Part shown: positions 45,786 to 62,340 of the stretch, one piece after another
How positions within the stretch are numbered: the stretch's first letter is position 1
Layout of the letters: each line of letters starts with the position of its first letter
DNA from: Inonotus obliquus
Taxonomy: Eukaryota; Basidiomycota; Agaricomycetes; Hymenochaetales; Hymenochaetaceae
Direction of reading: 5' to 3'
DNA length: 64,000 nucleotides
Assembly (NCBI GenBank): GCA_032164295.1
Contig: JAJHTX010000009.1
Span: forward strand, 1,302,001 to 1,366,000
Notes under the pieces: generated by a model
What the model was told of the DNA's origin: nothing
Database searches by the model: none
Seen by the model: the letters and a program-made list of their open reading frames with translations, nothing else
Translations under genes and position numbers: made by a program

Positions 45786-45843
45786 TTTTGAACTTCTACT
45801 TCTGAAATCCGTTTGCACGGTCGGTATTTGATTGTTTTACCTT

Positions 45844-45972
45844 CCGTACCTATACCCCCATCCCATTCTCAAATTATCTTATACATTCTTCCACTGTCTC
45901 ACTTATTCCGTACCTATACCCCCATCCCATTCTCAAATTATCTTATACATTCTTCCACTGTCTCACTTATTC
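45844..45972 (+). repeat. 64-bp tandem duplication after gag-only ORF
   Basis: A unit beginning CCGTACCTATACCCCCATCC and ending CTCACTTATT is present twice head to tail with no differences that I can see. It lies between the gag-only ORF and the polypurine tract before LTR3. Confidence 0.9.
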
Positions 45973-46222: not shown

Positions 46223-48186
46223 ATGAAGAGAACTACGTGCAGCTGAGCTCGGTATCAAGCCTGGTATCCCATTCTACGCTTACCCCATGCTACGGTACAG
46301 TCCTTCCAGTATCTACCAGCACACCCAGAGAAACCGTCAGTCCCATTTCTCGAAGTACCGAACGCCGAGAGTACCGGTACCGAGCGCCAAGAAACCCGGT
46401 ACCGAGAATACCGAGAGTACCGAGTGCCGAGAAACCCGGTACCGAGACAAATTGACAATTCAACATGCTCTCATGATATGGATCGGACGTCTCCCTCTCT
46501 GGTATTCATTCCTGATGGTTGGACTATGCATGCCGGTTCTTTGGAAAAGCTCAGGGTCAGTATCCATTAAGGTTTTCAGGTCCGGTACCACCAGGAACGT
46601 GTCGGTATCAATCAGCAGGGGCGCATATCTCTTGTCCTGAGGACTTTTCATCCAGGGGTACTATATACTACGTTTTCATTGGTATCTTGTCCTCCCTAAA
46701 CCTTTCTTGTTGTCCCCCTGATGGCGCTGCAATGTTCACTTTCTGTTACGCTCTGCGCTGTCAGAGACGTTGATCCGCTGATCAAAGACGTCGATGGCTG
46801 CAAAAGAACGAGCTACCACTTAATCACAAAAGACCGAAGTCTGCGACGTAGGTGATAGTACTAGAATTTAGCACGTCTATATAATATACAAGGGAGGATA
46901 CGACTTACCTGCGACGTAAGTGATAGTACTAGAACAAGAGAGTGAAGAGGCGATCACTCTCTAGTCCAGCCTTATATACCCAGATGCCGCGGGAAAGCTT
47001 TACATAAACTATACAGTATAAACAAAGACAAATAGAAAACGCTTTGTGCAAATCGCATCTTTGCACAAAGCATAAAAGTCACATGACGAGAAAAGGAGGA
47101 ATAATAAAATGGGAAAGAAGAGAAAGGGGAATGGCGGGATAAAGTTGTTATAGATTGTGATTAGCTAAGCCAGTAGGAATTAAGTAAGGAACGTGATTAA
47201 AATGAAAGTAAATATGCGTCGACGAATAGAAAGAATGGCCGTATGAGGAAAAGAGAAAAGACATCGTAACACTTTCCTTGTTACATTTTCTTCAGACTTT
47301 TCTTTGTTTTGATCTTCCTTTCTACTTTCTCCTTTTGGATTTATGAGCTAACTACGGTACAGTAGTATAAATATCTCCTCCTGTACGTAGTAGCTCTCCA
47401 GGTAATCTTAGGAGCTAGCCTCTAGCGTGAGGGCTCAGGTTTCCTCACCCCCTTCTCAGTCTCATCTCAGCTTTGTCTCAAGTTCTGTCCCAGTTCCGTC
47501 TCAAGTGAACCTCAGGAGTTAGCCTCCCGTGCGAGGGCTCAGGTTTGCTTCCCAGTCCAGTCGACACCTTCATCTACCAGTCTCCCTCATTCTGTTTCTC
47601 GCTATACCACCCCGTGCTAGCTATTTCCTTGCAGTACCGACCTGTACCGATGTTTTTCCCACGGTACCGACGTTTTGTTATTCTTCGTATTTTGCACATC
47701 CACCTTTCGTTTCTGTACTGAGCTTTTGTTTTACAACGTTTCTGCACATACCGATCCTGTTCGTTCAAGTACCGACCTGTACCGACGTTTTTCCCACGGT
47801 ACCGACCTTTAGTTATCCTTTGTATTCTGCACGTCATCCTTTAGTTTCTGTACTGATCTTCTTGTTTGACAACATACCTCCACGTACCGACCCCTTTCTT
47901 TCTGTACCGACCTGTACCGAGGTTTTTCCCACGGTATTAGACTCTTGTTTTGCTACGTTCTCCCTTGTACCGACCTATACCGAAGTTTTTCCCACGCTCT
48001 GACCTGTCCTTTTTGTACCAGAATCACATACTCTTCACTTCTGGCCCATCCATTCACTCCCCCATTTCATAGACAACAAGTACCATGAGCGTACTGGTTA
48101 AGTACCGGCACGTATTAGCCCTCCCCCACTTAAAACCATACACCCCTCGTCTCGGTATTTCGGTACCGGACGCGATCTCGCACATT
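46223..48186 (+). repeat. LTR3 (3' LTR) of compound element, interrupted
   Basis: It matches LTR1 across its full length, starting ATGAAGAGAACTACG and ending CGCACATT. A solo LTR at 46744-47271 and its duplicated CTTTC split it. Subtracting these 533 bases leaves 1431 bp, identical in length to LTR1. Confidence 0.9.
46744..47271. mobile_element. Solo LTR nested in LTR3, 528 bp, TSD CTTTC
   Basis: The insertion point is exact by comparison with LTR1. CTTTC flanks it (46739-46743 and 47272-47276). It begins TGTTACG and ends CGTAACA, the short inverted repeat of an LTR. An internal 25-bp-class repeat (CTGCGACGTARGTGATAGTA) occurs twice, near 46849 and 46910. No internal domain is present, so it is what remains after LTR-LTR recombination. 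Confidence 0.85.
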
Positions 48187-48469: not shown

Positions 48470-49348
48470 TGTTAGGACCAGTGCGGATCGGATCAGCAGA
48501 CCGATATTGATCGACTGATCAACACGATCGACGCACCAGACCAAGTCCACTCACTCTGGCAATATTCGCAGTCCGTCTTGATAAGCGATGGGAAGTGTGA
48601 GGCGGTGCTTTGTAGAGCGGGGTAGCAACAGTACTTAGTCGGGGTCAAGGGACCGGCCAGACACTAGTACCGATGATAAGAGTGGTAGCGAAGAAGAGAA
48701 GCTTGGTGGGGCTTCTTTGTATTCACTAGTACAGAAGAATTTTGCTGAGGGACATAGCCACCCTCGCTTGGCCTATTTATACCCGAAGCTTCTATCTATT
48801 GAGTTACCCGGGCTTCCTCGGGCACAGCCTCCTGATTCTTCTGAGCACAGCCCCTATCTTGTCCGATACCCTGCAATCTCCAATCGGGTGGCGATGCACC
48901 TCCAATCTTCCCCGCAATCCTTCTAGGACTTTCGATATGACTTCATACCTGGTCAATGCACAGCAATCATGCCATCATCGTCCAATCCTGTGGCTTGTGC
49001 GGAGCTCCGTGCCTTCCGCACTGCCCCAGCCGTCCTTCTCGAATGTCCCTTATGATGTCATGTACAGCAACTCGAACAGTCTGCCATGTCTTCATCTTCT
49101 GCAGGTGCTGCTGGGCCGTTCGGCTGCCTCGGTTGACTCGGGCTTCCTCCCTCCATAGGATTAGCTCAATTATCAATCACCGGAACGGCGGGCCTATATG
49201 GTTCTGCCTGTACTATGGCAGGTAACCCAGTCTGCCAGATCGTCGCTCGGCGATATCCGTTGGGTATCTGTATCTCTGTTCCTTGCACCTGATCGCCACT
49301 GATTCTGTTAGAAAGGTAGTATTATCCATCATTAATAAGCCAATAACT

Positions 49349-50119
49349 ATGAGCGTCCTACGTTGGATACAAGAACGGTTAGCGGCAGTAATACAAGTAC
49401 TAGAACAGCCCATCGTTCCCCCGACACCGCGAAGCAATATACTACGATGTTGCAACACGTGCCGCCCAGCTAAAGAACTAGCTGGAGGACTAATGCGAGA
49501 ATTAATCAGAGAGATCACTTACGGAGACATAATGAACGGACAAGCCGACATAATGATACGACGTCGATTTGTAGAACTAACCTACGACCCTAACCAACAA
49601 ATGCAAAAGGCTTATGAAAGGGAGATACGAGTATTATCCTACGACGCCGGATACTTTGTAATGATGATCGGAATACGAAACGTAGCACAGGAAGGAAGAC
49701 ACGAACGATGCGACGCAGCTATAGTAGACGTCGACATTGCCTACAAGCGAGACCAAGCCGGAACGAATGAGAGAACTGCATATGCTTGGGGGCATTGGAT
49801 AATGAATTACATAAGTCGAGGATTACCTTATGGATATACCATAATGGAAATAAAGGTAGAACAGTACGGCGGAGTAATACACCTACAAGGAGTACAAGGG
49901 ATAACCCTACAACGCGCCAGGACAACACCAGGATATACACGAGTGCAAACTATTCGAAACTGGCTGACTGTACCACGACCGATCCTACCAATACCAACGA
50001 GACCCGAAATACAAGAACAGATGACTCAGCAATTACCTAGAATAGCTGAATTGGATCAAGTGCCGTTACCTACACAAGGATCAAACCTATCTACAAGATG
50101 GTACCGCCCACTACACTAA
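49349..50119 (+). CDS. LTR (U3)-encoded ORF, 256 aa, unknown
   Basis: ATG at 49349 (MSVLRWIQERLAAVIQVLEQ) opens a 257-codon frame lying wholly within the LTR, upstream of the TATA box. It is intact in both LTRs with identical protein. An in-frame ATG at 49283 lies outside the element and is ignored. Visible parts: an amphipathic N-terminus, a Cys-rich spot (ILRCCNTCRPAKELAGG), a mixed middle (YDAGYFVMMIGIRNVAQ; YAWGHWIMNYISRGLPYG) and a Pro-rich tail. I do not recognise it. Genomic RNA would contain it only in the 3' LTR, as with the U3-encoded gene of one animal retrovirus group; expression could also come from the 5' copy through an upstream promoter. Confidence 0.65.
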   Translation: MSVLRWIQERLAAVIQVLEQPIVPPTPRSNILRCCNTCRPAKELAGGLMRELIREITYGDIMNGQADIMIRRRFVELTYDPNQQMQKAYEREIRVLSYDAGYFVMMIGIRNVAQEGRHERCDAAIVDVDIAYKRDQAGTNERTAYAWGHWIMNYISRGLPYGYTIMEIKVEQYGGVIHLQGVQGITLQRARTTPGYTRVQTIRNWLTVPRPILPIPTRPEIQEQMTQQLPRIAELDQVPLPTQGSNLSTRWYRPLH

Positions 50120-50266
50120 ACTAATCAAAGAGAGGCTAGTAACACAGAGGTAGTGAAATAAGGAAGGAAGTAAAGAGAAAGCACGGACCAGGTATCATAA
50201 AGGAAGAAACAGATAAATGCCATAAACAGTAAGTAACAAGGTAGTAACGTCACACATGTAAATTAG

Positions 50267-50275
50267 TATATAAGG
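50267..50275 (+). promoter_or_regulatory. TATA box of chromodomain element LTR
   Basis: TATATAAGG, followed by GAGGCCATCG, is the only strong TATA match in the LTR and is repeated in the 3' LTR. Transcription should start near 50300. An ATG immediately followed by a stop lies just upstream (50256) and would be excluded from the RNA. Confidence 0.65.
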
Positions 50276-50771
50276 AGGCCATCGTAGAGCCGACCTAGCA
50301 GTTTAATCCAAGTCAAGGGACCCTACCATAAGTCCCTAAGTTAAATCGTAACATCAATTACTTGCGAGCCAGTAAATTACCAGTAGCGACACGGCTGAAC
50401 TAAACCGATTGTGTGAAATCGAAGTGAAGCTAAAAATACGGATTGCAACTAGATTGTTCTCCCTATTGTCCGCACGGTACGAGCTACTCACAACGTAGTG
50501 CGATTCCCGATATTCCCTTATCGTGAATAACAATCAGTATAACAATCGCGTCTTCACGCCGACTTAATACTGTACGATTATAGTATCAGGTTCAACTGCA
50601 ATATTAGTTAGTTGCTGGTTGTTTCAGATCGGATCAGCTACACAGTCCACTAAGGTGATTAGCAATTCCATAACCAGTATTGTAGAATTTGGATTAACCC
50701 CTCAGACCGAGGAATAAGCCAGATTGGTCCGTCGATCAAGAATCAACGAACCCTCCACGGAGATAAACATC

Positions 50772-50788
50772 TGGATTAAACTCCCTTC
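50772..50788 (+). other. Primer-binding site of chromodomain element
   Basis: TGGATTAAACTCCCTTC starts two bases after the 5' LTR and begins with the expected TGG. Confidence 0.6.
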
Positions 50789-50871
50789 TTAGCAAGCTTA
50801 AAGGAACAAGCGCAGACTACTGCCAATAAAGGTAATTGTGATAGCACGAACTAGTCATTCAAATAGACTGA

Positions 50872-52891
50872 TTGAATAATTCCCTTATCCAATCAGTAGG
50901 CCACCTGGAACGGCAAATAGACATCAGTAACAACCACCGAAACCTAGAACCACAGGTCGGGTTAACATTGGAGCGTACAAAACAAACGCAGGAACGAGAA
51001 CGAGGAGCGCCGAAGGATATAGACGCGTGGAAGCTAATAGCGAGGCAACCAATTTGGCAAGATCTCTACTGGGATCATTTCAAGACAGGAAGGGTTATAG
51101 GCAAGGTATCACCTACACCACACGAAAGTGTATTTAAGAGAGCACTAGAAAACGGAGGAGGAACGTTGTACTCCGCGCAAGCACACGCCAACCTATTACA
51201 CCGAATACTACTAGCCCTACTTAACGGGAAGAAAGAGAAAGCAAAAGCAAGTAAAGTATAAGCACAAAAAATCGAATATATAATTAAATATAACTATAGT
51301 GGCTTACGAAGGAATATACGCGGGGCTGGTTACAGTATTCATATTTGGTACGATCTACTATAGGACAGCGATCGCAAGTGCGCTCAGACGAGGAACAAGA
51401 CTACTTCAATACCTGTCTATTTACGAACCCTACGCAACGCAGTGGGGGATATATCACTACTCAACTGCCATTGGAACGCAAGTGGACCGATTGGCCGGAA
51501 GGATCGAACTAATCCTCAACACACAGGCTGAAAAGGATCAAGCATTGGGAGTGTACCTAGACCATCAGTTCAATCAACATATCGAGAAACATAGCCGCTG
51601 GCACAGGAGTAACGACGAGGCACACCATATCACCAGAACGTTAGTAAGGTACAACCAGACAGAGCTAGGCATCCTCAGGACAATAACGAGAGAAGTACAA
51701 CACACCTTCGAGACGCTACAGCGAAGACAAGAAGAGCATATAGAGCGGTGGACTGCCCGAGAACACCGAGACGCCGAATTTCAGCGCGAACTATTAGATA
51801 AAGTAAGCCGCATCGAGACAAACTTCCTACGCCTAAGGAATCAAGTGTCGGATATCAGAGTCGCACTCGCCGTGTGGGAAGGAGAAGAAAGACAGCGAGA
51901 GGAAACGGAAATCCAACAAGACTGGAACACCGTCGGATCGTTATTAGGAGACGATCAAGATCCACCAACGCCGGAACTAACTCAGTCCGAAGCCAGTTGG
52001 GAATCACCGAACGAATCGGAGCAGAACGGAGGAGAGTGGGGAACAGGGAGCCGTTGGGCAAATTCAGAACCAAACGGGTTTAGGGACTTCAACGGAGACG
52101 AAAGTTACAGGCACCCAGACTCGCCAATTCCCACTATTCCAGACGAGGAACCGGAAGAAGGAGAGACACAATTACACGTAGTCGACTTCAGGGCCCAGAA
52201 CGAAAGTGAGAACCTAACTACAATCACGGAGGAAGAAGAAGGCATTAACCAAGAAAGTAGTACCTCCAGGGTTACATTTGATAACGGGAGAAGACTACCA
52301 AGCGGCATTAACGTTACTCGAGATCAGACAGGGAACGTCCGCATAGACCTGCGAGGATTGGCTAGGTTAAACATAAACGAGATAGTCGAGGAAGTAATTA
52401 CAGAGCTACAAGAAGAACTAAAACCGACAAACGAACAAATCCCAACAATAACCATCAGTCGCAAATATCATCGAAAAGCAGATCAGGACAGAATAGCTAA
52501 AGGAATCATAGGTCGAATCCGAGAACAAAGGGAAGCGAACAATAGGAAAGAAGAAACCAGAGAAGTCCAGAAAACCGAACGAGAACAGGGGATAATTGAA
52601 GAGGTAGAAATGAGGGGAAGGTTGGTGTTGTATTATTCCCCAGGATCCACGACCAGTGGCAATTCAGAAGAATTCTCCAGCCCATTCAGCGACGTTAGTC
52701 AAACCCACAGTAGCAACACTACAGAGGACGAATACCTAGAAGACAATTATCGAAGGCATTTAGCGTTACTAGAATTCGACCCAGCGGAACTCGAAATCTC
52801 GGAACAAGAACTTAGAGACCGGTTGACTTGGGATTCAAGCGAAGATGACGAGCCTACAAATGAGTATGTCGCAGAAACCACCGAAGTTTAG
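50872..52891 (+). CDS. Spliced pre-gag coding region, AUG created by splicing
   Basis: Two open frames, 50872-51261 and 51284-52891, join in phase across a 49-nt intron, 51251-51299 (GTAAAG donor; ATAACTATAG end). The join puts A51250 next to T51300-G51301, making ATG GCT. From that AUG the product is 530 aa: a hydrophobic segment near the start (YAGLVTVFIFGTIYY), coiled-coil-like helices with many Gln/Glu/Arg, then an acidic low-complexity half. The first exon also reads like protein (WKLIARQPIWQDLYWDHF), though it has no ATG. It may belong to a longer product begun at a non-AUG codon or from an unseen 5' exon. The stop overlaps the gag start by 47 bases. I do not recognise the family. Confidence 0.6.
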
Positions 52892-53783
52892 AGGAAGAGA
52901 TAAGGAGAACGTGGATGTATTTATAAATAAAATGATTAGTAATTTTGCATGGATGGATGCGCAAAATCAGAGCAACAAACAAGTGGCACTAACAGATAGT
53001 AACAAAGCCTATATCATGTGCCAATGCATGGAAGAAAAGGCTGCCACGTGGGTAAGCACAGCGTTAAAAACAAATCCGCTAGATATGATAGGAAAAGGGC
53101 AAGTATGGGAAACGTTTGAAGAATTCTTGACCTACATAAGGAGTAACCATAAACAATACTACGACCCTGTAGAAGACGCAACGAATAAATTAGTAAATAT
53201 TGTACAAGAAGGCTCCATATTGCAGTACAATAGCGATTTCGGAAAGATAGTATCAGAATTAGATAAGGCAGTATGGCCGGATAAGGCACTTACAGTATTA
53301 TACAGAAGAGGGATGAAAGATTATATTTATGCGCAATTAGCAGGACAAACGGAAAGCGCGAAATGGACGCTAGCAAACTGGATGAGCTGAGCAGTAGCAC
53401 TAGAAGGCGCAAGATATGGCGCCAAGGCAAGAACTAAGACCTTCACGAGCAACTGGGAAAAACCCCAGAGGAGAAAAGACGATGTAGTCCCAATGGACGT
53501 AGACGTACGAAAATTCAGGAAGAGGACTAATAAAGGAAAACCCAGGTACCGGAGTAACCAAAAACCGAAGAATACGACGGGTTGTTACAGATGTGGTAAA
53601 CCAGGTCACATTGCCAGAGAATGCAGAGTGAAACCACGAGAAGGAAAACCTCCGAGTAGACCGGGCTATCAAAAATTCAAGAGAAGATTGATAGGAGAAG
53701 AATCGGAATATGAAGGCTCCAACGAAGCTAGCGATAACGAGAAAGAAAGAGAACCTAAAGAGGATTTTCAAGAAAGCGACTGA
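52845..53783 (+). pseudogene. Gag of chromodomain element, broken by TGA
   Basis: ATG 52845 (MTSLQMSMSQKPPKFRGRD) opens a frame ending at TGA 53388-53390. The same frame then continues to 53783. The first part is a retrotransposon gag capsid (FAWMDAQNQ; CQCMEEKAATWVST; WETFEEFLTYI). The second has a CX2CX4HX4C knuckle (CYRCGKPGHIAREC). A single Arg-to-stop change (CGA to TGA) would explain the break, but this is inference. The pol frame overlaps the last 24 bases in the -1 phase. No canonical slippery heptamer is visible there. Confidence 0.85.
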
Positions 53784-53875
53784 TCGAATCGGCTGATCAG
53801 CGCGCAAGAAGAGGGACCATAACGAAACCAGAAGGAAGATGGTCGCGGGTAAAAGCGAAATGGAAACGCCGATGG

Positions 53876-56800
53876 ATGACCCCGGTAAAACCAAATACCG
53901 ATCATCCAAAACTGAGGATATACCTCAGTCAGGGGGGAAGGAGAAACCTACCAATAACAGCAATGATCGACTCAGGATCAGTATTAACAACGATTAGTCC
54001 TAATACCGTCAAACGATATGGACTAGATACAATAAAGAAACAGAATCCTGCCCAAATTAGAAATGCAGATGGAACGCTAACGAATAACGGGTGGAAGGAA
54101 AGCGTTAGAGCATGGGTGGATACCGGAGCATCAAGAGGAAATATGGAACTCGCAGTAGTAGAAACTACAGGAGACAAATTTTTATTAGGAAATGATTGGA
54201 TAGCTAACTATAAGCCAGTCATAAACTGGGAAACGGGTAAGGTAACAACTAAATTTGGAGAAGCCAAATTGTTAGGAACTCGGAATATGATAACGATGGA
54301 AAGGATGGCTCGATATCAACAGAAAAGAAGAAGAAAATCCCGTAAAATTAGATCTCCACTGCGAAGAGACTCCGAAGAAGGGTCCGAATCCGAAGGAGAC
54401 ACGGGATTAACAATAAGGTGGAATACCATGGGAAAGGCAAGCTTAGGGAATTTACCGACACCACCACCAAGGTCCGTACAAACCGCGGTGATTGTGGTGC
54501 CTCCAGAAGGAATACGGCCAACCACACTAACGCCTAAGGATGTTACAGTATTGCCAGCACCAGTAATGCAGTATAGGGAGTCGCAAGAAGGAATCGAATC
54601 CGACCCAGAGGAAGTCGAAGAAGTAGAAGAAACTACGGAAGAAAGGGACGAATTCCAAGAACAAATCTTGAGAAACTTTGGGAAATTAGCTGAAGAACTG
54701 CAAAGACTAGAGGAAACAAATCTCGAAGACCCGCCGAGATCACCAGAAAGAACGGAAATAGCACTCCCAAGCATAGAACAAATAATATCCGGGGAAACAC
54801 CGAGTAAAAGATTACCACCGCAACCACCGCCAAAAATGCACCAAGTAGGGCAAGGCGGAAGTAGAATAACTAGAGAGAGGAAAACGAGTTACCAAAAGGC
54901 CCGGGAAAACAAAACTAAACCAGAAGAGGTGGTATACGACCGAAACATGAGAATAACTGTACAAGTAAACGATCAAAAACCCCAAAACCGAGATTATAGC
55001 CGAAACAGCAGGATGAAAAAGGAAAGGACCGAGCAGGAAACAACCGCAATTAAGAAATTAAATAAGTATAGCAGTATGGCACAAAAGTACTCCCAAGAAA
55101 AGGCAAGGGAACAAGGACGATCACAAATAGGAACGACTAAGCATTGGAAATCCTTGGTGCCTAAAGAGCTATGGGATTTCGGGGAAATATTTAGTGAGAA
55201 CAATTCAAAACGACTACCGAAGCACAATCAATGGGATATGAAAATAGTGTTTAAAGAAGGACAGGAACCAACAGCGAAACGAACCATTTATCCGCTAACG
55301 CCACTAGAACAAAAGGCAGTGGAAGAATTCATAGAAGACAATTTGGCAAAAGGATGGATCAGGAGATCCACTTCAAAGTACGCAATGCCGGTATTCTTCG
55401 TCGGAAAGAAGGATGCAGGGGCAAGAATGGTAATAGATTACCGACCAGTAAATGCAGTTTGTGAAGTAGATCAATACCCGATACCCATTATGCACACGCT
55501 ACCCGACAATTTGGGAAAGGCCAAATGGTTCACCACGCTAGACCTTCGATCAGGATACAATAATATACGAATCCAAGAAGGAGACGAACATAAGGCCGCA
55601 TTCCGAACACATAAAGGAGTATTTGAACCATTGGTAATGCAATTCGGAATGATGAATTCGCCAGCAGTCTTTCAACGAGCTATGAACGAACTATTTGGAG
55701 ACATGTTGAACCATGGAGTGATGATTTATCTAGATGACATCATTATCTATGCTGAAACAAAGGAAGAACTGTTACAAAAGACGAGGAAAGTACTAGCTCG
55801 AATACGAAGAGCAGACTTCTATCTGAAACCGGAAAAATGCTTCTTTAACAAGCAAGAATTAGACTACTTAGGATTCATAGTAAATAAGGACGGATTAAAA
55901 ATGGACCCGTACAAGCTCAAAGCAATAGAAGAATGGCCAGTACCGCAAAACAAACGAGATATAAAGAAGTTTACAGGATTTTGTAATTTCTATAGGAAAT
56001 TTGTCAAGGACTATGCAGCAATAGCAAGGCCGATGAAGAAACTAGAATCCAAGAAACAAGCCTTTGTGTGGGGAGAAGAGCAACAAAGGTCGTTTGAAGC
56101 CCTGAAAAAGGCCGTAATCACAGGACCAATACTAAGAAGACCAGACTATGACAAAGCCTTCGTAGTAGAAACAGATGCATCGGACTATGGCATGGGAGCA
56201 GTATTATCACAAGAACACGAAGGAAAATTACATCCTATTGCCTATCTCACGAGATCCTTTACAACAACTGAAAGGAACTGGCCAGTATCCGAAAAGGAAC
56301 TGTACGCAATTGTAATCGCGCTAACTACTTGGAGACACCATTTAGAAGGAGCGAAACATACCATCATGGTACTATGCGACGCGTTGAACCTGAAGACCTT
56401 CATGAAAGCACAACGAGTCGGACGAAAACAGGCCCGATGGGTCACGGACGTACTGAGTAGATATCAATTCAAAATCGATTATCGACCAGGAAGCAAGAAC
56501 ACGAGGGCCGATGCGCTATCCAGGAGATCAGGATATGACGAAGGAAAGAATGATAACAAGGACGTGATCGTATTACCAAGAGAAAGATTCGTCAACCCAA
56601 AAATATTTGATCGACAAGCTAGGAACAGCACGAGCGAGGGAATGGTACCGCCAAACGACAAATTAATGCCCGGACAGGATCGGAAAAGGGATGTATTATA
56701 CACCTTCCACGACTCACCAATGAGCGGACATCCAGGAACAGACAAGACGATAGCGGCCACAGAAGAAATCTATTGGTGGCCGAACATGAAGGAAGAAATT

Positions 56801-58324
56801 AAGGAATATGTTGCCTCATGCCACATTTGTCAAAAGAACAAACCTAGGAGGGGACGAACACAACCACCACTGAAACCATTGGAAATACCAACGGGACCAT
56901 GGAAACATATCACCATGGATTTCATTACAGGACTTCCAGAAAGCGAGGGCTATGATGCGGTGCTAGTGGTAGTAGACCGGTTTTCAAAAATAGCAACGTT
57001 TATTCCCTGTACTAAAGAAACAGACAGTAAGAAAACAGCGAAGATGCTATTGGACCACGTATTCACGAAACACGGACTACCAGAAAGAATTACTAGCGAC
57101 AGAGGCCCACAGTTTACAAGCAACTTTACACAAGAAGTATATAAAGCCATGAATATTGACAATGCGCTTAGCACGGCACATCACCCACAAACAGATGGGC
57201 AAAGCGAAAGAGTAAACCAGGAACTAGAACAATACTTAAGGCATTACGTAAACACAGCGCAAGACAACTGGGCGCAGTACATCCACATGGCAGAGTTTGC
57301 TTATAATAATAGAATACACGCAGCAATAAAGAAGTCACCATTTGAACTCCTTTATGGAAGGAAATTGGAAATATTGCCCATGGGGCAAGCGAACGCACCA
57401 GACGCACAAGAATATATTAAAAAGGTATGGGAGGTACAGAAACAAGCAGAACAAGCGCTGATGGCGTCAAATGAACAAATGAAGAGATACACCGATAAAC
57501 ACAGGAGAGCAGAATTAGAATTCAAGGTAGGAGATAAGGTAATGATAGACGCTAGAAACTACAATATAGTAGTACCCAGCCGAAAGATAGGGCCGAAGAA
57601 TTTAGGACCATACAGAATAATCAAACAACATGGGCCATTAAATTATGAACTAGAATTACCAAAGAAGATGCGCATACATCCAGTATTGTATGCAGGCAAT
57701 CTTATTAAATATCAAGATAGAATAGTAGATGACACCACGGAAGACCAAGAAGTACCTTCGAATCCAGTCGTTGTAGAGGACGACGAATACGAAGTAGAGA
57801 GAGTACTAAATTCAAGGAAAACAGGACGGAAATATTACTTCTTAATCAATTGGAAGGGATACGGGGCAGAACACGACTCATGGGAGCCATTAGGGAACCT
57901 AGGAAACGCCACGGAAAAGATCGAGGAATACTATCAGAAACACCCACAAGCGGAGAAACCAAATTACATCGACGGATGGATTAGAAGGAATAACGAAAAC
58001 GAAGAGAAAGGAAAGCGAACAGCCAGGAGAAGGATGATAAGTACCAGGAACCCGATAAAAATAAAGGATTTCGCGTATGACGAAAACAACCCATTACACA
58101 CCAATCCTAGTGGTTCATCGAGAACGGATAATCTAGAAGAAACATACCAGAGAGCCAAAAGCCCACTATCCAAGGAACAACATTGGGAGGAAGACGACGA
58201 CAACATCAGGATGGATCCTGATCATGCCATAGAAGGAGATAAGGACGGAGGCCGCATCCGGCAAAGAAGTAGACGGTTAACGAAGCGGAAACCTACGGGT
58301 TCACACGAGGAACAGAGTATATAA
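53876..58324 (+). CDS. Pol polyprotein with chromodomain, 1482 aa
   Basis: The frame is open from 53759, overlapping gag; its first ATG is 53876. Domains in order: retropepsin (MIDSGSVLTTIS, Asp near residue 32), a charged linker, RT (MVIDYRPVNAVCEVDQYPIP; WFTTLDLRSGYNNI; YLDD near 618), RNase H (VVETDASDYGMGAVLS; RADALSRRSG), integrase zinc domain (HDSPMSGH to CHICQ, near 945), catalytic D, D, E (TMDFITG; TSDRGPQF; GQSERVN), and a C-terminal chromodomain from about residue 1304 (EYEVERVLNSRKTGRKYYFL; INWKGYGAEHDSWEP). This is the chromovirus layout; the chromodomain guides integration toward marked nucleosomes. The frame is intact across all domains. An acidic/basic tail of about 130 residues follows. 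Confidence 0.96.
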   Translation: MTPVKPNTDHPKLRIYLSQGGRRNLPITAMIDSGSVLTTISPNTVKRYGLDTIKKQNPAQIRNADGTLTNNGWKESVRAWVDTGASRGNMELAVVETTGDKFLLGNDWIANYKPVINWETGKVTTKFGEAKLLGTRNMITMERMARYQQKRRRKSRKIRSPLRRDSEEGSESEGDTGLTIRWNTMGKASLGNLPTPPPRSVQTAVIVVPPEGIRPTTLTPKDVTVLPAPVMQYRESQEGIESDPEEVEEVEETTEERDEFQEQILRNFGKLAEELQRLEETNLEDPPRSPERTEIALPSIEQIISGETPSKRLPPQPPPKMHQVGQGGSRITRERKTSYQKARENKTKPEEVVYDRNMRITVQVNDQKPQNRDYSRNSRMKKERTEQETTAIKKLNKYSSMAQKYSQEKAREQGRSQIGTTKHWKSLVPKELWDFGEIFSENNSKRLPKHNQWDMKIVFKEGQEPTAKRTIYPLTPLEQKAVEEFIEDNLAKGWIRRSTSKYAMPVFFVGKKDAGARMVIDYRPVNAVCEVDQYPIPIMHTLPDNLGKAKWFTTLDLRSGYNNIRIQEGDEHKAAFRTHKGVFEPLVMQFGMMNSPAVFQRAMNELFGDMLNHGVMIYLDDIIIYAETKEELLQKTRKVLARIRRADFYLKPEKCFFNKQELDYLGFIVNKDGLKMDPYKLKAIEEWPVPQNKRDIKKFTGFCNFYRKFVKDYAAIARPMKKLESKKQAFVWGEEQQRSFEALKKAVITGPILRRPDYDKAFVVETDASDYGMGAVLSQEHEGKLHPIAYLTRSFTTTERNWPVSEKELYAIVIALTTWRHHLEGAKHTIMVLCDALNLKTFMKAQRVGRKQARWVTDVLSRYQFKIDYRPGSKNTRADALSRRSGYDEGKNDNKDVIVLPRERFVNPKIFDRQARNSTSEGMVPPNDKLMPGQDRKRDVLYTFHDSPMSGHPGTDKTIAATEEIYWWPNMKEEIKEYVASCHICQKNKPRRGRTQPPLKPLEIPTGPWKHITMDFITGLPESEGYDAVLVVVDRFSKIATFIPCTKETDSKKTAKMLLDHVFTKHGLPERITSDRGPQFTSNFTQEVYKAMNIDNALSTAHHPQTDGQSERVNQELEQYLRHYVNTAQDNWAQYIHMAEFAYNNRIHAAIKKSPFELLYGRKLEILPMGQANAPDAQEYIKKVWEVQKQAEQALMASNEQMKRYTDKHRRAELEFKVGDKVMIDARNYNIVVPSRKIGPKNLGPYRIIKQHGPLNYELELPKKMRIHPVLYAGNLIKYQDRIVDDTTEDQEVPSNPVVVEDDEYEVERVLNSRKTGRKYYFLINWKGYGAEHDSWEPLGNLGNATEKIEEYYQKHPQAEKPNYIDGWIRRNNENEEKGKRTARRRMISTRNPIKIKDFAYDENNPLHTNPSGSSRTDNLEETYQRAKSPLSKEQHWEEDDDNIRMDPDHAIEGDKDGGRIRQRSRRLTKRKPTGSHEEQSI

Positions 58325-58418
58325 AGAAAAGAGTCGCCGACGAGATACCAGTATCCTTATCAATTCCTTTCACCACCGCCATCAAAACCCTAGACACGAG
58401 TACCAACGCCGAACGAAA

Positions 58419-59061
58419 ATGTCGAAAACCGTAGAACTTGTACTCGCGATAGTAGCGTTTGGATTGGTAATCATGATGAGTCTGATAATACAATGGAGAA
58501 TGCAATTTTGGATATGGAGACAGGTGCGCAGTCATTACAATAGAGAGATAGCAACCGTTAACCAGCTATCAGGAATTAAATCACCCGCCTGAAGAAGGCG
58601 TAGACCAAAACCCAATAGCGTTTGCGCACGGAAATGAAGATGAAGATGAAGATGAAGATGAAGATGAAGATGAAGATGACGATTACATCCCGATGCCGTT
58701 CATCCCCTGGCCAACCGAACAACAGATGGCGCAAGAAGGAGAACTATGGGCAAATGTAACAGCGCCCTCAAATGAAGATTGGGGAGACATCTCTACGTGG
58801 GGAGCAAACTGGCCAGCAGCGAACGACCCAGCACACTGGGATCACGAAACGTTTTGGACCGACGACGAGTTTATTTTCGATAACTGGACGCCGGAACAAT
58901 TAAACGAAATCTACGAGATAAGAAGGACCGCGAGAGAACAAATGAGAAACGAGTTAGTAAATCGAGCAGCGCTGGAGAGAGCGCTAGAAGAAGAACAGAA
59001 CGCAGACGACGAAATATGGGTGGACATTCAGTTATGGTCGTCAAATGTAGAAGAATTTTAG
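58419..59061 (+). CDS. Spliced membrane-anchored acidic protein behind pol, 197 aa
   Basis: Exon 1 is 58419-58523 (MSKTVELVLAIVAFGLVIMM and on), containing one hydrophobic membrane segment. It ends at donor GTGCGC. A 49-nt intron (58524-58572) ends in AGCTATCAG. Exon 2 is 58573-59061, in phase. Exon 2 starts ELNHPPEEGVDQNP and runs into an Asp/Glu repeat (GAAGAT units near 58637-58680). A Trp-rich acidic region follows (WGDISTWGANWPAANDPAHW) and then a helical tail. Unspliced, exon 1 reads on for 57 residues. Its position between pol and the 3' LTR is where envelope-like genes sit, but it shows no envelope features such as Cys pairs or glycosylation clusters. Unknown family. Confidence 0.6.
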
Positions 59062-59137
59062 CTCAAAACGGGCTTAAGAATTATGAATAAAGAATATGTG
59101 TCATGCATTCCTTATGATTATGTCAGATGCATTCCTA

Positions 59138-59147
59138 GAAGGGGGAG
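59138..59147 (+). other. Polypurine tract before 3' LTR
   Basis: GAAGGGGGAG abuts the 3' LTR start TGTTAG directly, as expected for the plus-strand primer. Confidence 0.85.
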
Positions 59148-60611
59148 TGTTAGAAAGGTAGTATTATCCATCATTAATAAGCCAATAACTATGAGCGTCC
59201 TACGTTGGATACAAGAACGGTTAGCGGCAGTAATACAAGTACTAGAACAGCCCATCGTTCCCCCGACACCGCGAAGCAATATACTACGATGTTGCAACAC
59301 GTGCCGCCCAGCTAAAGAACTAGCTGGAGGACTAATGCGAGAATTAATCAGAGAGATCACTTACGGAGACATAATGAACGGACAAGCCGACATAATGATA
59401 CGACGTCGATTTGTAGAACTAACCTACGACCCTAACCAACAAATGCAAAAGGCTTATGAAAGGGAGATACGAGTATTATCCTACGACGCCGGATACTTTG
59501 TAATGATGATCGGAATACGAAACGTAGCACAGGAAGGAAGACACGAACGATGCGACGCAGCTATAGTAGACGTCGACATTGCCTACAAGCGAGACCAAGC
59601 CGGAACGAATGAGAGAACTGCATATGCTTGGGGGCATTGGATAATGAATTACATAAGTCGAGGATTACCTTATGGATATACCATAATGGAAATAAAGGTA
59701 GAACAGTACGGCGGAGTAATACACCTACAAGGAGTACAAGGGATAACCCTACAACGCGCCAGGACAACACCAGGATATACACGAGTGCAAACTATTCGAA
59801 ACTGGCTGACTGTACCACGACCGATCCTACCAATACCAACGAGACCCGAAATACAAGAACAGATGACTCAGCAATTACCTAGAATAGCTGAATTGGATCA
59901 AGTGCCGTTACCTACACAAGGATCAAACCTATCTACAAGATGGTACCGCCCACTACACTAAACTAATCAAAGAGAGGCTAGTAACACAGAGGTAGTGAAA
60001 TAAGGAAGGAAGTAAAGAGAAAGCACGGACCAGGTATCATAAAGGAAGAAACAGATAAATGCCATAAACAGTAAGTAACAAGGTAGTAACGTCACACATG
60101 TAAATTAGTATATAAGGAGGCCATCGTAGAGCCGACCTAGCAGTTTAATCCAAGTCAAGGGACCCTACCATAAGTCCCTAAGTTAAATCGTAACATCAAT
60201 TACTTGCGAGCCAGTAAATTACCAGTAGCGACACGGCTGAACTAAACCGATTGTGTGAAATCGAAGTGAAGCTAAAAATATGGATTGCAACTAGATTGTT
60301 CTCCCTATTGTCCGCACGGTACGAGCTACTCACAACGTAGTGCGATTCCCGATATTCCCTTATCGTGAATAACAATCAGTATAACAATCGCGTCTTCACG
60401 CCGACTTAATACTGTACGATTATAGTATCAGGTTCAACTGCAATATTAGTTAGTTGCTGGTTGTTTCAGATCGGATCAGCTACACAGTCCACTAAGGTGA
60501 TTAGCAATTCCATAACCAGTATTGTAGAATTTGGATTAACCCCTCAGACCGAGGAATAAGCCAGATTGGTCCGTCGATCAAGAATCAACGAACCCTCCAC
60601 GGAGATAAACA
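59148..60611 (+). repeat. 3' LTR of chromodomain element
   Basis: It is 1464 bp with the same ends as the 5' LTR. The single difference noticed lies in R/U5 (TATGG versus TACGG at the CpG). Confidence 0.93.
59191..59961 (+). CDS. Second copy of U3-encoded ORF, 256 aa
   Basis: Same start (MSVLRWIQERL) and stop (TRWYRPLH) as the copy in the 5' LTR, with no amino acid change seen. This copy lies within the transcribed part of the element and could be translated from a 3' subgenomic RNA. The frame is also open upstream to 59083 through the polypurine tract, but that part lies outside the LTR. Confidence 0.65.
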   Translation: MSVLRWIQERLAAVIQVLEQPIVPPTPRSNILRCCNTCRPAKELAGGLMRELIREITYGDIMNGQADIMIRRRFVELTYDPNQQMQKAYEREIRVLSYDAGYFVMMIGIRNVAQEGRHERCDAAIVDVDIAYKRDQAGTNERTAYAWGHWIMNYISRGLPYGYTIMEIKVEQYGGVIHLQGVQGITLQRARTTPGYTRVQTIRNWLTVPRPILPIPTRPEIQEQMTQQLPRIAELDQVPLPTQGSNLSTRWYRPLH

Positions 60612-62340
60612 GATTCCTTCCATGACGAAGGTTAAGATCACCCCGTTGATCCGTTCCCTCGGTTGAGAGATTTCCAATGCTATCATCCCCGGTAGTTGAT
60701 TCTGCTCCGATTTCCATTGTGCCACTATGTTGCCAAATAGATTATTGCGTAGTGCTTGATGTTCTCATGTAGCTTCTGCATGTATTGGCCAGTCGAGTTG
60801 TATTGCCACTCGTCGGCATAGCTGGGAATGTATTGATCTTCTTGTCCATGCAATTACACCTGCATTCGCAATGTAGTGTAACCCCCTTCCTGTCCAAACC
60901 GTAACTTCGTGCAAGTATGCATTTAGTGTAGGTGTGAACAATGGTTGAGTTGTTTCTGCAACCGTCGACCAATGGTGGTTGGTTCAAATTGAATACGGGT
61001 CACTTCGAAGCATATGATTGACTGCATCCTCGAGTATCCATGTCTGCAGTAGCCATGCCTCTTCATGGCTACTGCAGACATGGATACTCGAGGATGCAGT
61101 CAATCATATGCTTCGAAGTGACCCGTATTCAATTTGAACCAACCACCATTGGTCGACGGTTGCAGAAACAACTCAACCATTGTTCACACCTACACTAAAT
61201 GCATACTTGCACGAAGTTACGGTTTGGACAGGAAGGGGGTTACACTACATTGCGAATGCAGGTGTAATTGCATGGACAAGAAGATCAATACATTCCCAGC
61301 TATGCCGACGAGTGGCAATACAACTCGACTGGCCAATACATGCAGAAGCTACATGAGAACATCAAGCACTACGCAATAATCTATTTGGCAACATAGTGGC
61401 ACAATGGAAATCGGAGCAGAATCAACTACCGGGGATGATAGCATTGGAAATCTCTCAACCGAGGGAACGGATCAACGGGGTGATCTTAACCTTCGTCATG
61501 GAAGGAATCAGTGGCGATCAGGTGCAAGGAACAGAGATACAGATACCCAACGGATATCGCCGAGCGACGATCTGGCAGACTGGGTTACCTGCCATAGTAC
61601 AGGCAGAACCATATAGGCCCGCCGCTCCGGTGATTGATAATTGAGCTAATCCTATGGAGGGAGGAAGCCCGAGTCAACCGAGGCAGCCGAACGGCCCAGC
61701 AGCACCTGCAGAAGATGAAGACATGGCAGACTGTTCGAGTTGCTGTACATGACATCATAAGGGACATTCGAGAAGGACGGCTGGGGCAGTGCGGAAGGCA
61801 CGGAGCTCCGCACAAGCCACAGGATTGGACGATGATGGCATGATTGCTGTGCATTGACCAGGTATGAAGTCATATCGAAAGTCCTAGAAGGATTGCGGGG
61901 AAGATTGGAGGTGCATCGCCACCCGATTGGAGATTGCAGGGTATCGGACAAGATAGGGGCTGTGCTCAGAAGAATCAGGAGGCTGTGCCCGAGGAAGCCC
62001 GGGTAACTCAATAGATAGAAGCTTCGGGTATAAATAGGCCAAGCGAGGGTGGCTATGTCCCTCAGCAAAATTCTTCTGTACTAGTGAATACAAAGAAGCC
62101 CCACCAAGCTTCTCTTCTTCGCTACCACTCTTATCATCGGTACTAGTGTCTGGCCGGTCCCTTGACCCCGACTAAGTACTGTTGCTACCCCGCTCTACAA
62201 AGCACCGCCTCACACTTCCCATCGCTTATCAAGACGGACTGCGAATATTGCCAGAGTGAGTGGACTTGGTCTGGTGCGTCGATCGTGTTGATCAGTCGAT
62301 CAATATCGGTCTGCTGATCCGATCCGCACTGGTCCTAACA

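Follow-up and report, generated by a model that had tools for sequence, protein, structure and literature searches.

An AUG-depleted leader upstream of gag, and a candidate intron that would create a start codon within it, in a Ty3/gypsy retrotransposon of Inonotus obliquus

How can ribosomes reach gag in an LTR retrotransposon when this gene is preceded by a leader of more than 2 kb, and how can such a leader encode proteins of its own when its open frames carry no methionine codon? The question is raised by a locus in the window, i.e., the 64,000-nucleotide stretch of Inonotus obliquus DNA analyzed here. The initial annotation had noted an ATG-free zone between promoter and gag and had proposed that selection removes every upstream AUG, such that scanning ribosomes on unspliced RNA arrive at gag, while the overlapping protein is made in another way.

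The locus is a Ty3/gypsy LTR element of 11.3 kb (49306-60611; Table 1), flanked on both sides by the 5-bp target repeat GATTC. The first 181 codons of gag match PF19259 (4.3e-10) and PF03732 (2.3e-6) in a Pfam search, and pol is a single 1521-codon frame with the Pfam order protease, reverse transcriptase (RT), RNase H and integrase, followed by a C-terminal chromodomain. As judged from pol, the LTRs and the self-primer discussed below, the element is a Ty3/gypsy chromovirus (Metaviridae). Relatives of its Gag amounted to two proteins among 421 candidates, both without DNA context, and none was found in viral contigs. The gag gene of the window copy carries a private in-frame stop; over the compared stretch the gene is open in 11 of the 14 full copies, L011 also having a stop and L010 being interrupted. 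The element occupies one arm of a near-perfect palindrome of the form A-element-B, 6 nt, B'-A' (48470-49305, 60609-61057, 61064-61512 and 61505-62340), of which the opposite arm is an empty site; this palindrome is either a recent inverted duplication or an assembly artefact. Short tandem repeats are seen 5' of the element at 47593-47958 and 45842-45969, with a spacing of 135 bp and 64 bp, respectively.

Table 1. Features of the element in window coordinates (a slash marks a splice junction)
Feature	Position	Strand	Remarks
5' LTR	49306..50769	+	1464 bp, TG...CA
U3 ORF, 256 codons	49349..50119	+	inside U3, also in 3' LTR; conserved in C6 (45%)
TATA box	50267..50273	+	read in sequence; position conserved in C6 and C13
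Probable RNA 5' end / self-primer AGTTTAATCCA	50300..50310	+	33 nt past TATA; perfect 11-nt PBS complement
Leader	50300..52844	+	2545 nt; AUG-free in 9/14 full copies; window copy has one ATG, 52610
Primer binding site (PBS) TGGATTAAACT	50772..50782	+	2 nt past 5' LTR
Candidate leader intron (AAAG/GTAATTGTG ... ATCAG/TAGG)	50832..50896	+	creates no AUG; hand reading of alignment
ORF-A	50872..51261	+	129 codons, no Met; 33% identical to C6 counterpart
Candidate intron GTAAAG...CTATAG	51251..51299	+	49 nt here, 47-54 nt across 14 copies
ORF-B coding exon	51300..52891	+	hydrophobic N-terminal segment, charged/acidic remainder; 47-nt overlap with gag start
Private ATG	52610..52612	+	absent from other 13 full copies
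gag	52845..53783	+	Ty3-type capsid match in first 181 codons; zinc-knuckle motif by eye
pol	53759..58324	+	protease, RT, RNase H, integrase, chromodomain; overlaps gag, -1 frame
3' gene	58419..59061	+	small hydrophobic N-terminus 58419-58523, candidate 49-nt intron 58524-58572, acidic part
3' LTR	59148..60611	+	1 mismatch vs 5' LTR

The element was compared with the whole genome (36.07 Mb in 30 contigs), in which 150 RT matches were scored. Fourteen full copies, including that of the window, were aligned, and the partial copies L023-L026, which are interrupted by foreign sequence, were left out of the copy counts. A diverged relative, referred to as C6 (C6:2446672-2451702 plus its 3' end), and a broken one, C13, were also used, as were other families of the same genome, which are referred to by the lengths of their frames. 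A gag-like lineage at C12:688110 is a nested, decayed fragment that offers no usable leader and was dropped; L059 (1346-aa group), which was read as a non-LTR element, was left out of the leader counts.

In self-primed elements the RNA 5' end is complementary to the PBS, a signature described in an excerpt of PMC4600332. A PBS complement of at least 11 nt is found 33 to 36 nt past the TATA box in seven out of seven leaders (window, C6, C13 and four other families). Because an 11-nt match to the start segment was also obtained in 23 of 2000 base-shuffled leaders, a single match can arise by chance, and the convincing point is that its position recurs from family to family. From the self-primer, the RNA is predicted to start, probably, at 50300. 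A transcription start near 52600, which would leave the ATG-free zone out of the RNA and which the initial annotation had listed as an observation that would speak against its proposal, appears unlikely given the conserved TATA box at 50267 and the self-primer.

The absence of ATG from 50276-52609 (A 841, G 544, C 519, T 430) was confirmed by an exact count, which gave 0 ATG and 27 CAT, and the next ATGs are, as had been annotated, those at 52610 and at the gag start, 52845. The earlier assertion that base composition does not explain this pattern was also borne out: 2000 dinucleotide-preserving shuffles yielded on average 21.1 ATG, with a minimum of 11 compared to 0 observed, which rules out chance or composition as the cause. 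Over the leader as a whole, one ATG is found against 23.1 expected (0.04 of expectation), and ATG is the sole triplet that is nearly absent; the next lowest, TTT, is at 0.46 of expectation, CAT is near expectation, and the near-cognates GTG and TTG are over-represented. Outside the leader, ATG was counted 19 times in U3 (16.1 expected), 24 times in the gag stretch (19.0) and 90 times in pol (76.4), i.e., these regions are not depleted, and the depletion begins at the promoter and stops at gag. When the synonymous codons of ORF-B were shuffled (51302-52843), 11.3 ATG were expected in all frames taken together and one was observed, that at 52610. Because this ATG is private to the window copy, the zone of the family reaches 52844; among the other 13 full copies, four have one private ATG elsewhere in the zone up to that position.

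Counted from the RNA start to gag, nine of the 14 copies have no ATG and five have one each, at five different sites of which none is shared. The copies are about 98-99% alike in the leader, and invariance among them is therefore weak evidence. Minor alleles present in one copy only, which mostly arose after insertion, include five ATG gains compared to 4.79 expected; those common to at least two copies, which probably have passed through transposition, include none compared to 4.16 expected (Poisson probability near 0.016, taken alone and with alleles treated as independent). A separate observation concerns a single site in the LTRs, where the window copy has ACG in the 5' LTR (50438-50440) and ATG at the matching place of the 3' LTR (60281), while at the homologous site C6 1153 the 5' LTR has ATG and the 3' LTR has ACG. 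As read from these sequences, the position (50439/60281/C6 1153) is a CpG site that mutates to AUG.

The leader of C6 has 54% of aligned bases in common with that of the window, and counterparts of the TATA box, the self-primer, ORF-A, ORF-B, the U3 ORF and the 3' gene are all present. In its 2597 nt, two ATG and 33 CAT are found. One of these ATGs is ACG in the element's own 3' LTR and was thus probably acquired after insertion. The ATG at C6 2891, which is also found in C13 (2885), is a true exception; it is out of frame with both ORF-B and gag and opens a 30-codon frame. C13 itself, a broken copy with stops in ORF-B and gag, has eight ATG and 34 CAT, as expected if selection had ended, but the copy also counts, plainly, as a relative in which ATGs occur. 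The initial annotation had held that ATGs scattered through the zone in related elements would weigh against selection; such scatter is seen in the broken C13 and, mildly, as the one site common to C6 and C13. Of the 30 CAT that the window contributes to the alignment, only six are also CAT in C6; triplets are thus replaced freely, and ATG nonetheless remains rare. The count from RNA start to gag was extended to other families, of which the 1199-, 1277- and 1214-aa families are represented by one copy each. No ATG is found in the first (790 nt) or the second (1270 nt), and one, in the weak context TACATGT, in the third (1101 nt). In the 1808-aa group, two of three copies have one ATG and the third has two; the ATG common to this group has a weak context (TATATGC), and the gag ATG has a strong one (ACAATGG). 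In L054 and L055 the common ATG opens a 293-codon pre-gag frame (open frame 301) with a 47-nt gag overlap, and in L053 this frame is interrupted early. As far as these readings go, the AUG rule applies throughout the five family groups, two of which possess a pre-gag gene. Taken together, the copies, the diverged relative and the other families, as well as the contrast between mutations confined to one copy and those present in several, all back the proposal of the initial annotation, and selection against upstream AUG from the probable RNA start (about 50300) up to gag is well supported by these comparisons.

Both Met-less open frames were found as had been claimed, one of 129 aa at 50872-51261 and one of 535 aa at 51284-52891. 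Comparison of the 14 copies gave a pN/pS of 0.146 (ORF-A) and 0.122 (ORF-B), against 0.81-3.4 when the other two frames were used. The length of ORF-A is 349 nt in all 14 copies; that of ORF-B is 1587, 1590 or 1596 nt, in each case a multiple of three, and one copy carries a stop. ORF-B is 34% identical to its C6 counterpart, and the best 19-residue mean hydrophobicities of its N-terminal segment are 1.48 and 2.03 in the two families. That ORF-A and ORF-B are under purifying selection as conserved proteins without Met is well supported at the sequence level. Relatives of the ORF-B protein were found neither among the 7993 best candidates (E 1e-3) nor in the PDB (E 1), and a Pfam search at E 0.1 returned no match for ORF-A, ORF-B, the U3 ORF or the two 3' frames.

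The spacer between ORF-A and ORF-B is 47, 48, 49, 50, 51, 52 or 54 nt long, i.e., all residues modulo three are represented, and translation of the spacer in a single constant frame can therefore be discounted. At its ends, all 14 copies have GTAAAG and TATAG, and removal of the segment as an intron would yield GCA A/TG GCT TAC. The AUG made in this way would have G at both -3 and +4 and would share the frame of ORF-B. At the same place C6 has GTAAGG...GATAG, and removal would yield GAA A/TG GCT TAC. The splice would fuse ORF-A in frame to ORF-B in the window family and would not do so in C6, and this difference in phase indicates that the conserved feature is the AUG rather than a fusion. Among 12 AG/TG sites in the window and 15 in C6, one in each, at the homologous site, has a strong A/GT donor 40-60 nt upstream; in shuffles, a fixed stretch of 22 positions contained such a donor in 1.1% and 1.4% of cases. 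A genome-wide search for the donor-acceptor pattern gave 18 matches (the 14 full copies, two partial copies, C6 and C13) compared to none in the reversed control, and the acceptor lies inside one of nine identical runs of at least 11 nt between window and C6. Plausible host actin/tubulin introns of 55, 71 and 56 nt provide a rough guide, the list from which they are taken including false pairs. By eye, the candidate intron of the window has no clear CTRAY branch site, and a search of the genome with one pattern found no spliced DNA copy. We infer splicing at 51251-51299 from the donor-acceptor pattern and the AUG that it would create. Donors and acceptors that would create an AUG for ORF-A were also sought: an in-frame scan of pairs gave none in the window, and seven pairs in C6 all lie at least 414 nt before the open frame with a stop between. 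A non-AUG start of ORF-A is our default guess. The notion of a protein made in another way fits these data, since both frames are conserved without Met and the small candidate intron would supply the AUG of ORF-B. A further candidate intron lies just past the PBS (50832-50896), where a donor, a CTGAT branch-like site and an acceptor are similar in C6; this site might be a major donor for 3' genes.

These observations suggest the following sequence of events. With AUG purged from the RNA start to gag, ribosomes scanning the unspliced genomic RNA would start at gag. From part of the RNA the 47-54-nt intron (51251-51299 in the window copy) would be removed, and the A/TG junction would provide a strong-context upstream AUG (GCA AUG G) from which a protein of ~530 aa, beginning MAY and having a hydrophobic N-terminus, would be made from ORF-B. 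In this way, one and the same transcript would yield Gag-Pol when unspliced and the ORF-B protein when spliced. The model as a whole, i.e., a self-primed leader purged of AUG, two Met-less proteins and an intron-made AUG for ORF-B, seems to us likely. We also lean towards its formulation as a start-codon switch, in which the genomic RNA has an AUG-free leader of 2.5 kb and loss of the tiny intron introduces the only strong upstream AUG, turning a Gag-Pol mRNA into the mRNA of a membrane protein, while the pre-gag gene of relatives in the same genome is reached through either the splice or a single AUG of weak context, the latter in the 1808-aa group.

The main rival to the splice as the origin of the ORF-B start is initiation at a GUG. 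Here, ribosomes would scan leakily and use non-AUG starts, as they do in rice tungro bacilliform virus (RTBV): ORF-B would be started at GUG (51299-51301, AUAGUGGCU) on unspliced RNA and ORF-A at another near-cognate, with most ribosomes going on to gag. The GUG has a good context (A at -3, G at +4) and belongs to a 12-nt run that is identical in C6; the conserved block ATAGUGGC could also act as a good-context GUG start, ATAGTGGCTTAC being a plausible acceptor and a good start context alike, and the variable length of the spacer is compatible with an intron or with a plain intergenic spacer. In addition, the near-cognates are not depleted in the leader, ORF-A needs a non-AUG start in any case, and leaky scanning with a non-AUG start has a precedent, described in part of PMC5902531. 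What this alternative leaves unexplained is the strong A/GTAARG donor found at the same place in both families despite a difference in codon phase, and we regard this alternative as rather unlikely.

Two further alternatives carry far less weight. Gag might be reached without linear scanning (by an IRES, a shunt or a second promoter), the lack of ATG then being a result of, e.g., codon or mutation bias; 2.5 kb is a long distance to scan, and LTR elements can use two promoters, as in BARE (PMC3735527, in an excerpt). Against a bias stand the near-absence of ATG alone among the triplets, with CAT near expectation, and the private mutations that make ATG at the expected rate; furthermore, for two leader stretches of ~1 kb, the predicted folding (z -0.98 and +0.52) was not superior to that of 20 shuffles per stretch. 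We consider this explanation highly improbable. We give equally little credence to the idea that ORF-A and ORF-B are later exons of transcripts that originate upstream of the LTR promoter, with an AUG-bearing first exon in U3. It draws on the conserved 256-codon, Met-bearing ORF in U3, but this frame stops at 50119, a non-systematic look found no conserved upstream promoter, and the phases of the leader intron, in an alignment read by hand, differ between families.

The preferred reading, i.e., an AUG-purged leader with a splice-made AUG, has partial parallels in known systems. In RTBV, ORFs I and II are AUG-free over about 900 nt and are served by leaky scanning, with AUU as the start of ORF I (PMC5902531, in an excerpt). 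Like RTBV and the badnaviruses (Caulimoviridae), the present element is reverse-transcribing and has two long ORFs without internal AUG before the capsid gene, apart from one private ATG in each of five of the 14 copies. In contrast to RTBV, where ribosomes leak past the AUG of ORF II, the leader comprises 2545 nt, has no AUG in nine of 14 copies and harbors a candidate AUG-creating intron. A kinship with Caulimoviridae is not indicated because the element has a chromodomain integrase and LTRs. Caulimoviridae are not known to have an integrase or to integrate by means of LTRs.

The predicted RNA 5' end complementary to the PBS and the order RT-RNase H-integrase are shared with fungal self-primed LTR retrotransposons of the Tf1/Tj1 type, as far as these are described in part of PMC4600332. 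Further features of the window element are the pair of ORFs before gag, the 3' gene, the U3 ORF and the placement of gag and pol in two frames. Elements of the Drosophila MDG1 group harbor sORF1 and sORF2 before gag, where sORF2 encodes a transmembrane protein, and some lepidopteran elements have an sORF2-type gene after pol (PMC11952523, a preprint, in an excerpt). The similarity to these elements lies in the two accessory ORFs before gag, the hydrophobic N-terminus of ORF-B and the position of the 3' gene after pol. According to the same part of the preprint, sORF2-like proteins have 63-107 aa and a TM segment, and the search for them used canonical start codons and a myristoylation motif; the ORF-B protein, by comparison, comprises about 530 aa, would start MAY, lacks an AUG when unspliced and is hydrophobic only at its N-terminus, i.e., it is not sORF2/FAST-like. 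In BARE and copia, splicing restricts the RNA to Gag, and in Ogre it joins gag-protease to the rest of pol (PMC3735527 and PMC6317226, in excerpts). As in these elements, the splice proposed here would change which protein one LTR transcript encodes, with the difference that it would make a start codon upstream of gag. No splice-made AUG of an LTR element is mentioned in the titles and opening abstract lines covered by a limited literature search. Splicing of env in Gypsy occurs in flies.

What we propose as new is an intron-like spacer, present in both families, whose removal would create the AUG of ORF-B. If correct, the leader would be an unusually long AUG-free scanned region (compared with about 900 nt for RTBV in the excerpt of PMC5902531), and selection on start codons would act through conserved coding sequence. 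The splice-made AUG would constitute a simple division of one retroelement RNA among genome, Gag and accessory protein. The layout, i.e., two pre-gag ORFs of which the second has a hydrophobic N-terminus, together with a similar 3' gene, parallels that of insect elements reported to move between cells (PMC11952523, in an excerpt) and is now found in a fungal genome.

The U3 ORF, which carries Met, has a pN/pS of 0.173 and ends before the TATA box. Its position is comparable to that of sag in MMTV or nef in HIV. Its predicted structure (pLDDT 60.8) gave no PDB matches at E 1e-3. The candidate intron of the 3' gene fits all eight copies that were read, with 49 nt in seven and 50 nt in one. The layout of this gene is similar in C6, including a similar donor and acceptor, and is also seen in L067 at about 1044-1395. 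In the window, the frame of the 3' gene runs on, past one stop, in frame into the ORF of the 3' LTR.
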